From positions 1 to 21,765 of IMG/VR virus record IMGVR_UViG_3300011258_000814: DNA of 21,765 bases; one strand, given 5' to 3'. Numbering within the stretch: the first letter of the stretch is position 1; each line of letters begins with the position of its first letter. Both the position numbers and the translations under genes were made by a program. Below the pieces are notes generated by a model. The model saw only the letters and a program-made list of their open reading frames with translations. It was not told the DNA's origin and did no database searches. The DNA comes from a virus. This document shows, in pieces, positions 2,094-6,747 of the stretch.

Positions 2094-2908
2094 AATATCA
2101 AATAGTCATACCAAGCTACAAACGCCACGATACGATTCAGAATAAAACACTGAAGTTTCTTGAAGGTCACGGCATCGACCCTAGCCTCATCAAGATATTC
2201 GTTAACGATGAAGATCCCGATGAATACGATAACTATAAAAAAGCTCTTGCTACTAACGAATACGCTAAGGACATCGAGATAGTTAAAGGTGTAGCTACAT
2301 TAGGATTACAACGTAATTTCATTGAGCGTTACTACCCTGAGGGAACTAACCTCATGATGTTTGATGATGATATCGAGCAGGTGCTTACCAAATCGGATGA
2401 CAAGTTGGTAACAGTTTCTGACTTGGAGCAGGATGTTATCATTCGCGGCTTCGCGGCTTGCCATAAGCATAAAGCTAAATTGTTTGGGATATACGCTGCA
2501 TCAAATCCTTTCTTCATGAAGCATCGGACATACACTAAACTTTCCTACATCGTTGGCTGCATGTTTGGTGTTGTTGTTGAGCATGACGATTTCTTAAAGC
2601 GTGTCACTAACCATGGTGAAGATTATGAATACTGCATCAGGCAATACCATAAGAATAAAGTTGTCATAAGGCTGGATGACATAACGGCTAAGACTGTTTA
2701 TTACCATGAAGCAGGTGGTCTTCAAGAGGTCAGGACTGAACAATATATATATGATTCAATCAAAAAAATAGCTTCTACGTTTCCGCAATACTGCAAAATG
2801 TACATTCGAAAAACTACAGGTCACGCTGAGTTGCGCTTGAATGACCAATCACCTAAAGCTAAAAGGAAAAGTGCATTGGCAAGTGCATTAAGAAAAAGTC
2901 GCAAATGA
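2090..2908 (+). CDS. TET-associated-type glycosyltransferase (GT-A fold)
   Basis: 272 residues. It opens with a GT-A nucleotide-sugar strand ('YQIVIPSYKRHDTI', residues 3-16), followed by 'IKIFVNDEDPDEY' and an acidic metal-binding motif 'MMFDDDIE' with DDD at 92-94 (DxD type). Residues 174-180 (NHGEDYE) supply a likely catalytic or acceptor-site acidic cluster, and H206 in 'VYYHEAGG' a possible late metal ligand. The tail is very basic ('SPKAKRKSALASALRKSRK'), which suits DNA binding. Its 4-nt overlap with the dioxygenase gene indicates it glycosylates the hydroxylated base made by that enzyme, as proposed for phage TET clusters. The sugar donor is unknown. It also overlaps the small terminase gene by 4 nt, tying modification to packaging in one transcript. 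Confidence 0.8.
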   Translation: MKYQIVIPSYKRHDTIQNKTLKFLEGHGIDPSLIKIFVNDEDPDEYDNYKKALATNEYAKDIEIVKGVATLGLQRNFIERYYPEGTNLMMFDDDIEQVLTKSDDKLVTVSDLEQDVIIRGFAACHKHKAKLFGIYAASNPFFMKHRTYTKLSYIVGCMFGVVVEHDDFLKRVTNHGEDYEYCIRQYHKNKVVIRLDDITAKTVYYHEAGGLQEVRTEQYIYDSIKKIASTFPQYCKMYIRKTTGHAELRLNDQSPKAKRKSALASALRKSRK

Positions 2909-3537
2909 TAGACCAATCATTATTAGATAATGTTAATAAAAAGCTACTCTCAAACATTGTTGCCAAGGTCAAAGATGGAAAGACGCTGACTGCTCAGGAG
3001 TCTGCTTTCTTAGATTCACAGGGTAAAAACAACTCTAGCGATAGGCTGGATGGCGACTCAGTGATTAAGACCTCAGAGTTAGTTGACCTATTCGGAGTCA
3101 CAGCTCAACAGATAGCTAACTTATCAAATGACAAAGTTATATCTAAAATATCAAATGGAAGATATAAGGCTTGGGAATCTATTAGGAATTATATTCGACT
3201 TCTACAGAAAAATAGAAAATCGAAGCATGGTTCGGGTGCTACGATGGATGAACTGCGTAAGAAACTAACTGAAGAGCAGGGGAGAAAAGAGTCTGCTGTT
3301 GCTTCCCTGAAAGAATTAGAACTTAGGATGAAGGCAGATGCACTGATACCAGAATCAGAAGCTGCTGAGAAGGTAATAAAACTCCTTACACCACTCAGGA
3401 GGCTACTAGATGGTTTGCCTAGAGAAGTTGCTGCCTTAGCAAATCCATCAAATCCACAGATAGCTGAACTCGCTATACGCAATGGACTTGACGAACGGGT
3501 CTTTTCTGAGATAAGTAAAATATTTTCCGATGGGTAG
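2905..3537 (+). CDS. terS: terminase small subunit (Nu1-like)
   Basis: 210 residues. Residues about 50-90 ('VIKTSELVDLFGVTAQQIANLSNDKVISKISNGRYKAWESIRNYIRLLQ') form a winged helix-turn-helix like that of lambda Nu1 and related small terminases: a helix-turn-helix, then a G-R-Y-based wing, then a helix. The second half (about 105-175) is a charged, probably coiled-coil helix followed by 'LLTPLRRLLDGLPREVAALANP', typical of Nu1-like oligomerisation or terminase-contact regions. It would bind the packaging site and recruit the large subunit. The large terminase is unusually distant (about 1.4 kb downstream), separated by an RNA-like element and three small genes. Its start codon overlaps the stop of the glycosyltransferase gene (ATGA). 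Confidence 0.85.
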   Translation: MIDQSLLDNVNKKLLSNIVAKVKDGKTLTAQESAFLDSQGKNNSSDRLDGDSVIKTSELVDLFGVTAQQIANLSNDKVISKISNGRYKAWESIRNYIRLLQKNRKSKHGSGATMDELRKKLTEEQGRKESAVASLKELELRMKADALIPESEAAEKVIKLLTPLRRLLDGLPREVAALANPSNPQIAELAIRNGLDERVFSEISKIFSDG

Positions 3538-3592
3538 TCGAACTATTAAGATGTTCGGGGTTTGTAGTATTTCCTTTGTAACCACCCATCGG
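3527..3592 (+). repeat. inverted repeat across the terS stop, enclosing a second complementary arm
   Basis: CCGATGGGT (3527-3535, ending in the terS stop region) is the exact reverse complement of ACCCATCGG (3584-3592). Inside the loop, ATTTCCTTTG (3569-3578) is the exact reverse complement of CAAAGGAAAT (3611-3620), which lies outside the loop in the tmRNA-like element. The two helices cross, so if both form the RNA would be a pseudoknot. A small local hairpin CGAAC (3539-3543)/GTTCG (3553-3557) fits in the loop. There is no good U-tract after 3592, so this is not a convincing terminator. Confidence 0.6.
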
Positions 3593-3603
3593 ATTAATTT
3601 TCT

Positions 3604-3667
3604 GGGGATGCAAAGGAAATCGACTTGATTTATTTCAAGCACTGGGGTTCAATTCCCCACATCTCCA
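3604..3667 (+). ncRNA. tmRNA-like tRNA-like domain without mRNA domain (mini-tmRNA candidate)
   Basis: The element folds as an alanine-type tRNA-like domain. The acceptor stem GGGGATG (3604-3610) pairs with CATCTCC (3660-3666), and the third pair is G3606:U3664, which is the G3:U70 identity element read by alanyl-tRNA synthetase. A discriminator A (3667) is followed by CA, not a full CCA. The T-arm is perfect: TGGGG (3643-3647), loop TTCAATT (3648-3654), CCCCA (3655-3659). The 5' part GGAAATCGAC (3615-3624) resembles the tmRNA D-loop (GGnUUCGAC). In place of the anticodon arm is a short hairpin CTTGA (3624-3628)/TCAAG (3635-3639), which would be a cut-down P2 helix. There is no tag-coding region or pseudoknot chain between the two halves. 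Alternatives are a decayed tmRNA, an att site derived from host ssrA, or a D-armless tRNA-like regulator. Confidence 0.6.
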
Positions 3668-3686
3668 CATAACCACACATAATACT

Positions 3687-3980
3687 ATGAAAAAACAAAA
3701 AAATAAAGAGGAATCAATTTGTCAGGAAGCTTATCGAATTCAGGGCGGCGATCGGCAGCAGGATTATGGAAGTCCTGATAAAAATCTAAGAGAAATAGGT
3801 GCTTCTTGGGAATGGTATCTTAAAACAAGCTGCGATATAGAAGTATCAATTTCCGCTAGAGATGTAGCTCACATGATGATACTGATGAAAGTTGCTAGGA
3901 ATGTCCATAAACCTAAAAGAGATAATTGGGTAGACATTGCAGGTTACTCCCAATGCGGTGGAAAGATTGATGACCTATGA
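3687..3980 (+). CDS. DUF6378-like phage protein
   Basis: 97 residues. The pattern 'GGDRQQDYGSPDKNLREIGASWEWYL ... ISARDVAHMMILMKVARN ... KRDNWVDIAGY' matches a small conserved phage family I know as DUF6378, of unknown function, often near nucleotide metabolism or modification genes. All the recognisable blocks of the family (QDYG, DVA.MMI..K.AR, DNW.DIAGY) are present, so the gene looks intact. It begins 20 nt after the tmRNA-like element, with an A/T-rich leader and no Shine-Dalgarno, and overlaps the next gene by 4 nt. Confidence 0.7.
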   Translation: MKKQKNKEESICQEAYRIQGGDRQQDYGSPDKNLREIGASWEWYLKTSCDIEVSISARDVAHMMILMKVARNVHKPKRDNWVDIAGYSQCGGKIDDL

Positions 3981-4196: not shown

Positions 4197-4964
4197 ATGT
4201 CAAAGCTAGTTAAGTTGAACGATACAGGTTTTAACAATATGATCGGTCACTTGCGCAGAGGAACTGGTGCCACATTAAAAGAGGTTACTCGAACTGTAAC
4301 TGGTTCAATACTTCAGAATGCCGCTGTGCATACTGGTAAATCTAGCTATAAAAATATCGTTGCTGATGTGGACAGGTCGCTTTCTAGAATATTTATATCA
4401 AGCACTGGTGTTAAGGTTAGAAAAGGTAAGGATGGTTCACTAGTGGTTAAGAGTCCTGCCGTGACTAACAATAAATGGGTCAAGGTTCGAGATGACTACA
4501 AGGTAAATGCTATCAGTGCCAAAGCTCCTTCAGGTAGAAGTTTCAGTAAGAAACAAACTAGCGCAATCAATAAGGCTCTAGGTGAACTCAGAAAGAAAAG
4601 GACTCAAATGCTTAAGGCTAAAAAGAAAAATATAGCATCGGGTCAGGCTACATTTATTTACATGCTTAGGAAGTTGAGAATAAAGCTAAAGAGCAACAGG
4701 GGACTTGGCGCAGCATTAAAAGTAAAGTTACCTTTGGTTCACACTAGAGCTTTGAGTGCTAGAGAATTTAATGTTGGCAAGGATGAATATATCATCATGC
4801 TTAAAAGTAAATCCATGTCTGCGCTGAACATTCACGCTAAGGGCATGGATGCTTTTAGGAGAGCATTCAATATGCAGGTAAAAGGATTCGAGACTGCGGC
4901 TAAAAAAAACATGAAAGCTTTTACAAAAAAATTCGCTACAAAAAATGGGTTCACTATTAGATAA
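4197..4964 (+). CDS. lysine-rich basic phage protein, function unknown
   Basis: 255 residues from the ATG at 4197. The frame is open upstream to 4077, but that part would overlap the preceding gene and is not needed. The protein is very rich in Lys and Arg (for example 'ELRKKRTQMLKAKKKNIASG' in the middle and 'AAKKNMKAFTKKFATKNGF' at the end). The N-terminal 'DTGFNNMIGHLRRGTGATLKEVTRTVTGSILQNAAVHT' vaguely recalls small tail-completion or head-tail joining proteins, whose genes normally lie after the capsid gene. Here it precedes and overlaps the large terminase by 20 nt. The basic character would also suit a DNA- or RNA-binding virion protein. The function is unassigned. Confidence 0.65.
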   Translation: MSKLVKLNDTGFNNMIGHLRRGTGATLKEVTRTVTGSILQNAAVHTGKSSYKNIVADVDRSLSRIFISSTGVKVRKGKDGSLVVKSPAVTNNKWVKVRDDYKVNAISAKAPSGRSFSKKQTSAINKALGELRKKRTQMLKAKKKNIASGQATFIYMLRKLRIKLKSNRGLGAALKVKLPLVHTRALSAREFNVGKDEYIIMLKSKSMSALNIHAKGMDAFRRAFNMQVKGFETAAKKNMKAFTKKFATKNGFTIR

Positions 4965-6747
4965 CAAAATAAACAATTTATTCTCACCTAGAGAATTAAA
5001 ATCTCCAGTAGATTGGGCATTTGAGAACTGCACCCTTCGTGATAATATATCGGAACTGCCTGGATCTTTGCGCATATTCCCATACGCTAAGCAGCCTCTT
5101 GAGGATCTAATTGACCCTTACGTAAACAAGGTCACACTATGTTGGGGTTCGCAGTCTAGTAAGACTACCACCATGTATACAGGTCTCGCTTACTTATTAA
5201 GTGAGTTTCCGAAAGATACTATATGGATTATGCCATCGGCTGAGAATGCTAGGCAATTTTCAAAAGGCAGATGGTTGCCATTCATCGATGACTGCAAACC
5301 TCTAAAGGCTCAATGCCCTTTAAGTCCTGCAACTGGTAAAGTAGATTCAGACAAAATCACAAATATGCGTCAGGAGTTTCTCTCATGCACATTAACCTTC
5401 GCAGGTGCAGGATCTGAGAATAATGTTAAGTCTGCCCCTGTCGCTTACCTAGTCTTAGATGAAATTGATGAAATTGATCCTGATATTAGACTCGCTGCGC
5501 ATGAACGTATTAAGGGTCGCAGGCAGTATAAGATAATTCAGACTTCCACTCCAAAGGATGAGGAGGGTGGAATCTGGGAGGAATACCTATACGGCGATCA
5601 ACGCAAATACGAAATGCCTTGCCCACATTGCAATGAAGATATCCAGTTTACTTGGAGGCAAACTGATAAGGGTGGTAATCTTAGATACTCAATAGCTTTT
5701 GATGAGGATGCAAAGCTAGAGGAGGGATACGACTTTGAACTTGTAGCTTCAACTGCGCATTACAGATGCGAAAAGTGTGACGGCAAAATATTAGATGCAC
5801 ATAAGCATGACATGATAAAAAATGGCAAATGGGTTTCTGAGAATCCCAATGCACCTAAAGGGCATCACAGCTACCACCTCAATTCCATGTATGCACCTGT
5901 TATGACATTCGCATCATTGATGGTTTCTTGGCTTCAAGTTTGCCATTCAACCCATGGACTAAAGAAGTTTGTTCAGGGTAACTTAGCTGAACCTTGGCGT
6001 GAAGATTGGGCTAATCAGGATCAGGCTGACGCTCACCAGTTGGAGCTAGATTATCAACAGGGTGACATGAAGGGTGAAGTTAGGATACTTGCTGCGGATA
6101 CTCAAACTGATTCGTTCTGGTTTGTCGTTCGCGGCTTCAACAGGGATGGCGATAGCTACTTAATTGATTGCGGTCAGGTGGCTACATTTGCTGAGCTTGA
6201 TGGAAAGTATGATCAGCACACATGCCAATCCGCTATAGTCGACTGCGCAGGCGATAGAACTGCTGAGATTTACGAGGAAGTCCACAAGCGCAGATCTAAG
6301 TGGTTCGGCTCAAGAGGTTGGAAAAATCTGCAAGGGGATCAGCCTTATAGAATGCAAATGAAAGATCCGTTCACTGGAGACAATAAGGGGCGAGCAGGTA
6401 AATCGAAAATACGATACCTCCATGTCAATAAAACTTTGTACGAGGATGAACTCGCCCGCTTGCGTTCTGCTCAGATCACAGGCTTCTATACATTTGCCGA
6501 TACACCTAAGGTTTATTACGATCAATTGTTTTCAACTTACTGGACTAAGGAGACTAACAAGTCTGGTCACATCAAAGTTGTTAAAAAAGTAAAACGCGGT
6601 AAAGGTGATCACATGTGGGACTGCGAAATACTTGCTAGAGCTTTATCTAAGTTCATCGGCATAGCTCGAATAGATGTTAATCAAGATCCTGTTCCCAAGC
6701 GTAAGAAGGTAAGAGGAGGTCAGACTTCAACAGGGTTCTGGAGCTAA
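4945..6747 (+). CDS. terL: terminase large subunit (GpA family)
   Basis: 600 residues, normal for the lambda GpA family. The ATPase domain has a variant P-loop WGSQSSKTT (about 67-75) and Walker B YLVLDEID (168-175), followed by the coupling segment 'IIQTSTPKDEEGG'. A Cys-rich insertion with CPHC (226-229) and CEKC (275-278) is typical of GpA-type enzymes and probably binds zinc. The nuclease domain starts near 'ILAADTQTDSFWF' (D385), with a further acidic strand 'AIVDCAGDRTAEI' and a late 'GDHMWDCE'. It would drive DNA into the procapsid and cut it with the Nu1-like partner. The start at 4945 overlaps the upstream gene by 20 nt and has an A-rich leader. The stop codon lies inside the first promoter repeat. 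Confidence 0.95.
   Translation: MGSLLDNKINNLFSPRELKSPVDWAFENCTLRDNISELPGSLRIFPYAKQPLEDLIDPYVNKVTLCWGSQSSKTTTMYTGLAYLLSEFPKDTIWIMPSAENARQFSKGRWLPFIDDCKPLKAQCPLSPATGKVDSDKITNMRQEFLSCTLTFAGAGSENNVKSAPVAYLVLDEIDEIDPDIRLAAHERIKGRRQYKIIQTSTPKDEEGGIWEEYLYGDQRKYEMPCPHCNEDIQFTWRQTDKGGNLRYSIAFDEDAKLEEGYDFELVASTAHYRCEKCDGKILDAHKHDMIKNGKWVSENPNAPKGHHSYHLNSMYAPVMTFASLMVSWLQVCHSTHGLKKFVQGNLAEPWREDWANQDQADAHQLELDYQQGDMKGEVRILAADTQTDSFWFVVRGFNRDGDSYLIDCGQVATFAELDGKYDQHTCQSAIVDCAGDRTAEIYEEVHKRRSKWFGSRGWKNLQGDQPYRMQMKDPFTGDNKGRAGKSKIRYLHVNKTLYEDELARLRSAQITGFYTFADTPKVYYDQLFSTYWTKETNKSGHIKVVKKVKRGKGDHMWDCEILARALSKFIGIARIDVNQDPVPKRKKVRGGQTSTGFWS

Follow-up and report, generated by a model that had tools for sequence, protein, structure and literature searches.

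A tRNA-like-domain-only tmRNA of bacteriophages with invariant alanine identity elements, a putative antagonist of host trans-translation

In trans-translation, the charged tRNA-like domain (TLD) of tmRNA enters, together with SmpB, a ribosome whose A site is empty and accepts the nascent chain. Mycobacterium phage DS6A has been described to carry a tmRNA consisting of little more than the TLD (PMC4131195, PMC11915505). According to the account in PMC4131195, which cites Mao et al. 2009, a DS6A-like molecule strongly inhibits tmRNA regardless of whether it can be charged, perhaps by titrating SmpB, and PMC11915505, citing the same work, refers to this inhibition as observed in E. coli. The ‘standard, no CDS’ type of tmRNA accounts for 9 of 97,179 sequences in this literature (PMC4131195, PMC11915505). 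TLD-only tmRNA is already known as a kind, represented in these sources by DS6A and by the CDS-less tmRNAs of plastids and mitochondria. Our search of the open-licence literature, to which subscription papers do not belong, found no survey of TLD-only tmRNA in phages, and phage TLD-only forms came up there only in PMC4131195 and PMC11915505. Here we show that TLD-only phage tmRNA is far commoner than reported, with 67 short and at least 108 longer distinct sequences. The breadth of the family, its two architectures and the test of the G3:U70 pair appear to be new.

The starting point is an IMG/VR virus record of 21,765 bases, analysed over its whole length and referred to as the window, which carries a 64-nt element at 3604-3667 on the plus strand. 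Its sequence reads GGGGATG / CAAAGGAAATCGA / CTTGA-TTTATT-TCAAG / CAC / TGGGG-TTCAATT-CCCCA / CATCTCC / A, where CAC connects the P2 hairpin with the T-arm, and its D-region is GGAAATCGAC. The features of the locus are as follows:

2905..3537, plus strand: terminase small subunit (TerS) gene, flanking the element (phrog_57, E 1.2e-14)
3604..3667, plus strand: TLD-only tmRNA, short form, 64 nt (Rfam RF00023 and covariance model R1)
3604..3610, plus strand: 5' strand of the acceptor stem with G3 at 3606 (sequence; 7/7 pairs with 3660-3666)
3611..3624, plus strand: D-region ending in the tmRNA-type TCGAC at 3620-3624 (sequence; aligned to the Rfam tmRNA D-region)
3624..3639, plus strand: P2 hairpin CTTGA-TTTATT-TCAAG in the place of the mRNA-like domain (fold; P2 covariation in relatives)
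3643..3659, plus strand: T-arm TGGGG-TTCAATT-CCCCA (sequence; T-stem covariation; 5/5 stem pairs)
3660..3667, plus strand: 3' strand of the acceptor stem, carrying U70 (3664) and the discriminator A73 (3667) (sequence; invariance tests)
3687..3980, plus strand: gene for a phrog_474-type protein (‘phosphofructokinase’ in PHROGs), flanking the element (E 2.1e-26)
4945..6747, plus strand: terminase large subunit (TerL) gene (phrog_15, E 3.4e-92)

That 3604-3667 is a TLD-only tmRNA can be regarded as nearly certain, given the Rfam match, the orthologues at the same place, the covariation of three stems and the invariance of G3:U70 and A73. The initial annotation had read the stretch as a tag-less tmRNA TLD, and its details are borne out as well. 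The 7-bp acceptor with the G3:U70 wobble forms all seven pairs, with 3606 opposite 3664; the T-arm with its TTCAATT loop is perfect, with five of five stem pairs; the tmRNA-type D-loop can be read directly and is aligned in RF00023; the 5-bp hairpin in place of the tag and pseudoknot part is seen in both sequence and fold; and the element indeed lies between two phage genes, encoding TerS and the phrog_474-type protein, on the same strand as both and with the TerL gene further downstream. The window element lacks the mRNA-like domain, including its tag frame and pseudoknots, and has a 16-base hairpin instead. Present are the features of a tmRNA-type TLD, that is the 7-bp acceptor, the T-arm and a D-region without a D-stem. 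With its complete TLD, which a short hairpin closes off, and no tag frame, the element has the make-up of a TLD-only (CDS-less) tmRNA of the DS6A kind. The Infernal-type comparison that the annotation had named as a check returned RF00023 from end to end (model positions 1-374, the middle being left out) at 42.2 bits and an E-value of 2e-15, the curated cut-off being 47. Our own covariance model R1, of which the element is one of 22 seeds, matches it at 70.6 bits (E 3e-13). In RNA folding, minimum free energy (MFE) and centroid structures both correspond to the TLD shape (-20.9 kcal/mol, z -2.66), and a structural scan yielded one match in the window as compared to none in 300 mononucleotide shuffles. 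CCA is not encoded, as A73 is directly followed by CAT, and neither a sigma-70-type promoter nor a terminator was seen near the element.

ARAGORN reports 0 genes in the whole window and misses the element; a canonical tRNA was discarded as a reading in view of this result and of the missing D-stem and anticodon arm. Those elements of the family described below that were checked are likewise missed or miscalled by ARAGORN. A tRNA-Ser call over the element in relative L005 is taken as spurious, and a ‘tmRNA*’ call overlapping the mini-element in L033 is likely so. A permuted two-piece tmRNA (RF04321) was also dismissed, as the order is 5' acceptor followed by 3' acceptor and the score is 18.3 bits versus 47. 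ARAGORN does call permuted tmRNAs in several of the phages examined, among them unannotated two-piece molecules with tags starting AND in L337, L338, L339, L341 and L268, which are Alcaligenes, Acinetobacter, Stenotrophomonas and Pseudomonas phages.

To obtain relatives independently of the RNA, we retrieved them by TerL, which gave 38 in IMG/VR. R1 matches 8 of the 39 sources (window plus relatives) at E < 2e-9, namely the window, L003, L005, L006, L013, L033, L035 and L036, with the next match at E 0.43; the scores of the window, L003, L013, L033 and L035 are biased upward since these are seeds of R1. All eight elements were first detected by a plain base-pairing scan. Wherever the small terminase gene is recognisable, the orthologous elements sit between it and the gene for the large subunit, and P2 is wholly different between relatives (CTTGA/TCAAG in the window versus CCGGCGC/GCGCCGG in L035, for example). 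Thus, the comparison with related phages revealed stems that are conserved and covary and a G3:U70 pair that is kept, the opposite of the unconserved stems that the annotation had named as counter-evidence. The element is nonetheless dispensable, because L004 (TerL 90% identical) contains a decayed copy, L038 lacks the mini-tmRNA at the corresponding place, and L002 (TerL 99% identical) has other genes at this site. In many further TerL relatives, the upstream region is different or the sequence stops short of the site. In L013, a tRNA-Glu (ttc) at 1129-1203 ends 5 bases upstream of the mini-tmRNA, as if both came from one transcript.

A second structured stretch is located immediately upstream of the mini-tmRNA, at 3526-3593 of the window. 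It consists of a long closing stem, TCCGATGGG/CCCATCGGA, enclosing a hairpin with a TATTAAGA loop and a TTTCC motif. The sequence of the closing stem differs in L038, L033, L035, L212, L218 and L013, with complementarity being kept, and L038 has this structure without a mini-tmRNA. Rfam provided no convincing match covering 3526-3593, which we regard as a candidate new structured RNA adjoining the small terminase gene.

Selection on the structure is evident from alignment A1, which comprises 22 diverse elements and is the basis of R1. Pairs are formed in 99.2% of 396 cells as compared to 79.5% after shuffling, double-change cells number 83 versus 22.9, and the covariation score is 0.590 versus 0.175; none of 500 shuffles was as high on these measures, which overstates significance because many of the sequences are closely related. 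Less affected by kinship are the stem changes between groups and a slid control, in which shifting the partners by 1-3 columns left 43-58% of cells paired. The acceptor, P2 and T stems all covary. All 67 distinct short-form sequences show standard pairing at 5:68 and 6:67, the free pairs of the acceptor; their T-stem pairs are standard save for one cell; and P2, which was never included in the search pattern, has 4.84 of the first 5 pairs formed versus 3.11 with shuffled partners. Folding of single relatives gives the TLD as MFE structure for the window and nearly so for L035, and L148, L058, L209 and L042 fold otherwise; the claim of a TLD rests on covariation, not on fold energy.

The family comprises two architectures, one in which P2 is a hairpin and nothing more (59-69 nt) and one with an inner hairpin added to P2 (mostly 73-82 nt). 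The completed pattern scan of IMG/VR returned 110 stretches of the short form, and scan matches together with the loci fetched by terminase amount to 67 distinct sequences of 59-69 nt. RF00023 matches all of 50 short-form records tested, 43 of them above the cut-off of 47. Grouping of 116 short-form locus entries by shared proteins, with some contigs entered twice in opposite orientation, resulted in 17 gene-neighbourhood groups. The largest accounts for 54 entries, and in those of its members that were sampled the element is close to replication and exonuclease genes; in 22 entries it is found where the portal gene has its 3' end, the window's group contributes 15, and the remainder are small groups, in which the neighbours include a T7-type adaptor (L170), RIIA (L220) or tail genes (L243). 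The gene identities derive from a sample of 20 flanking proteins. A packaging signal, an idea raised by the siting between TerS and TerL, was discarded in view of these varied neighbourhoods in other phages, as the same RNA occurs by DnaB helicase/exonuclease genes, the portal 3' end, RIIA, the T7-type adaptor and tail genes. In L040 (4017-4078) and others of the 22-locus group, the mini-tmRNA is actually contained within the 3' end of the portal reading frame, which extends 95 bases beyond it. In L099, most of the P2 hairpin sequence is repeated (TTGATTTATTTCAAG) shortly 3' of the element.

The longer form is represented by at least 108 distinct sequences, counted with 7/7 acceptor and 5/5 T-stem pairs and pooled from IMG/VR, genome contigs and phages. 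Its extra hairpin within P2 has the form ‘AAARCC...GGA’ (L041, L047, L094, L103 and others; L266 991-1068), and the inner stem varies, pairing being maintained in many cases. By a crude count among the 108 longer-form matches listed, 17 lack a 3-bp inner stem, and in 10 P2 is at most 3 bp long. When 84,980 bacterial and archaeal genomes were searched with the combined pattern, only 18 stretches were obtained, indicating that the RNA is chiefly viral in the collections scanned. Thirteen of the 18 have 7/7 acceptor and 5/5 T-stem pairs, and all of these are of the longer form (L248, L250, L252-L255, L257-L260, L262, L263 and L265). The remaining five consist of four chance-like matches and L251, which measures 51 nt with 6 acceptor and 5 T-stem pairs.

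Copies of the longer form are also present in cultured phages. They reside in tRNA clusters, without annotation as RNA, in Streptomyces phages pSt2308 (PV588686.1 33356-33433), LuckySocke (OR725497.1 17977-18054), Shaeky (MT701595.1 42932-43010) and GiJojo (PP725410.1 17025-17102), in the last of which an annotated hypothetical protein overlaps the element. The same holds for Streptomyces phage BRock (KX925554.1 97143-97220, minus strand), which belongs to the longer form by model score only, at 45.6 bits. The acceptor of LuckySocke and GiJojo, GGGTCTG/CAGATCC, has U:A at 4:69 and retains G3:U70. One of the Streptomyces phages with a copy was isolated on S. lividans JI 1326. Alone3, at only 28.1 bits, was not counted as longer form, and a number of phages with blastn matches (Sixama, S-CRM01, Sarge, SM1, Kumao, QDWS595, BUCT628, BUCTxx99, PA_L9 and others) were set aside, mostly having full-length or permuted tmRNA, tRNA, 3'-end remnants or no complete TLD.

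G3:U70 and A73 are identity elements of substrates of alanyl-tRNA synthetase (AlaRS). As the patterns used to find the family forced U70, we tested this base by releasing it. With base 70 varied in the same short-form pattern, IMG/VR returned 110 stretches for U and 0 for A, C or G; non-U70 stretches numbered 0 also with the 5' strand unconstrained and 0 in the longer form. The ambiguity code itself works, since its use at the discriminator gave 112 stretches including two new loci, and a local control was run in addition. When U70 was kept and the 5' acceptor strand left free, 110 distinct elements resulted, of which 108 have G3, and in the other two no more than 4 or 5 acceptor pairs form. 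Fully paired (7/7) acceptors have G3:U70 in 105 of 105 cases. The neighbouring pair 4:69 is GC in 101, CG in 5 and TA in 2 of the 110 and unpaired in 2. The discriminator is always A, the two non-A matches being devoid of a T-stem, and CCA directly follows A73 in 35 of the 67 distinct short-form sequences. A need for charging is the simplest reading of this invariance. The result argues for a role of charging in nature, and the invariant G3:U70 thereby favours an antagonist that would be charged and enter the ribosome over passive titration of SmpB. However, the published inhibition by an unchargeable form, as related in PMC4131195, stands against charging as a requirement.

Partners of the RNA were sought in the 50 short-form records, most of which are fragments. 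SmpB was detected in 0 of the 50, as compared to detection in 10 bacterial genomes used as control, and a second tmRNA above 17 bits was found in none of these mostly fragmentary records. With neither of the two found on the phage side, the RNA would act with SmpB, AlaRS and EF-Tu of the host.

Antagonism of host trans-translation, which the initial annotation had raised, is the putative function with the best support, and it agrees with the published inhibition as cited in PMC4131195 and PMC11915505. In our model, which presupposes host SmpB and tmRNA, the RNA would be excised from the phage transcript like a tRNA and would receive CCA by addition in the case of the window element; roughly half the short-form relatives encode CCA. 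Host AlaRS would charge it with alanine through G3:U70 and A73, as suggested by their strict invariance, and the kept TLD would presumably bind host SmpB and EF-Tu. The charged RNA could then replace host tmRNA in stalled ribosomes whose A site is empty and receive the nascent chain while offering neither reading frame nor stop codon. Having no resume codon and no stop codon, it would not permit tagging and ordinary exit from the stall; because the TLD would accept the chain yet could not finish, it would be a competitor of host tmRNA, and the net outcome during infection would be dominant-negative competition with host trans-translation. We consider this mechanism as a whole somewhat more probable than its negation. 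As many different phages retain the RNA together with its alanine mark, it is likely to enter stalled ribosomes and to jam or divert host rescue. In its broadest form, the proposal is that charged tag-less tmRNAs of two architectures constitute a widespread, repeatedly selected phage counter-measure, in which RNA poisons would have to be alanylated for EF-Tu and SmpB to carry them into stalled ribosomes, where they would shut down or divert host rescue; to this we give an even chance.

The same structural and identity evidence would also fit a helper role, in which the charged TLD and SmpB free stalled ribosomes without tagging, with the aid of host release factors, which would save phage proteins from being degraded. 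Something similar has been suggested for mitochondrial tmRNA, which, according to PMC11915505, still contributes to coping with incomplete mRNAs even though it has no tag frame. However, the single experimental report cited in PMC4131195 and PMC11915505 describes inhibition rather than rescue, and we regard this role as rather unlikely. A passive sponge for SmpB would not need charging, in line with the statements in PMC4131195 that inhibition occurs ‘whether or not chargeable’ and ‘perhaps acting by titrating SmpB’. But a pure sponge would have no need of alanine identity, whereas G3:U70 and A73 are invariant where neighbouring acceptor pairs covary and CCA is encoded in 35/67, which makes this explanation quite improbable. 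Invariance of G3:U70 could alternatively reflect a sink for AlaRS or EF-Tu instead of the tmRNA pathway. An AlaRS sink, however, would not require the tmRNA-type D-region and connector, and both are retained: GG precedes TCGAC in the listed D-regions though it was not forced, TCGAC itself being forced in the patterns, and GAC-type connectors dominate (46/67 GAC, 10/67 CAC). Such a sink is therefore very improbable, and we hold equally little of a decoy for a host defence nuclease with tRNA-like RNAs or tmRNA as its substrates; phage tRNAs do adjoin some copies (tRNA-Glu in L013, the tRNA clusters in Streptomyces phages), but the strict alanine identity would be left unexplained.

The alternative offered by the initial annotation, an ssrA-derived attachment site, did not hold up. 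Genes for tmRNA are common integration sites, and Arthrobacter phage Sarge has a match to the 3' end only, near an integrase. The elements described here instead comprise a complete TLD, with both acceptor strands, the D-region and a covarying P2; a tyrosine integrase was found in 1 of the 50 short-form records, most of which are fragments; and the surrounding gene order differs widely among phage groups. An attachment site is thus extremely improbable. Should the preferred reading be correct and trans-translation be blocked, phages and bacteria would quite generally be in conflict over ribosome rescue. The invariant G3:U70 offers a sharp discriminator between charged ribosome entry and mere titration of SmpB, and the copies in cultured Streptomyces phages make this question practically testable.

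How does this RNA compare with known molecules? It shares G3:U70, A73 and the T-arm with tRNA-Ala, but lacks D-stem, anticodon arm and variable loop, and R1 scores annotated tRNAs at no more than 35 bits as compared to at least 54 bits for the elements of the window's group. Full-length phage tmRNAs such as that of Mycobacterium phage Kumao have the same TLD and the same acceptor logic; unlike the element, they carry a tag frame (407 nt with a predicted tag in Kumao). The tmRNA of DS6A is likewise phage-borne and cut down to little more than the TLD, and a molecule of this kind is reported to inhibit endogenous tmRNA; whereas DS6A is a single phage on record in the sources cited above, the short form described here recurs in 17 neighbourhood groups. 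The CDS-less plastid tmRNA of Mallomonadaceae (~65 bp) also keeps the TLD, has lost the tag frame and is of similar length, and mitochondrial tmRNA without a tag frame has undergone the same loss with the TLD kept, as described in PMC11915505. However, these organellar CDS-less tmRNAs serve the translation of their own organelle, whereas the phage form is carried by a parasite, beside the full tmRNA that its bacterial hosts generally have of their own.
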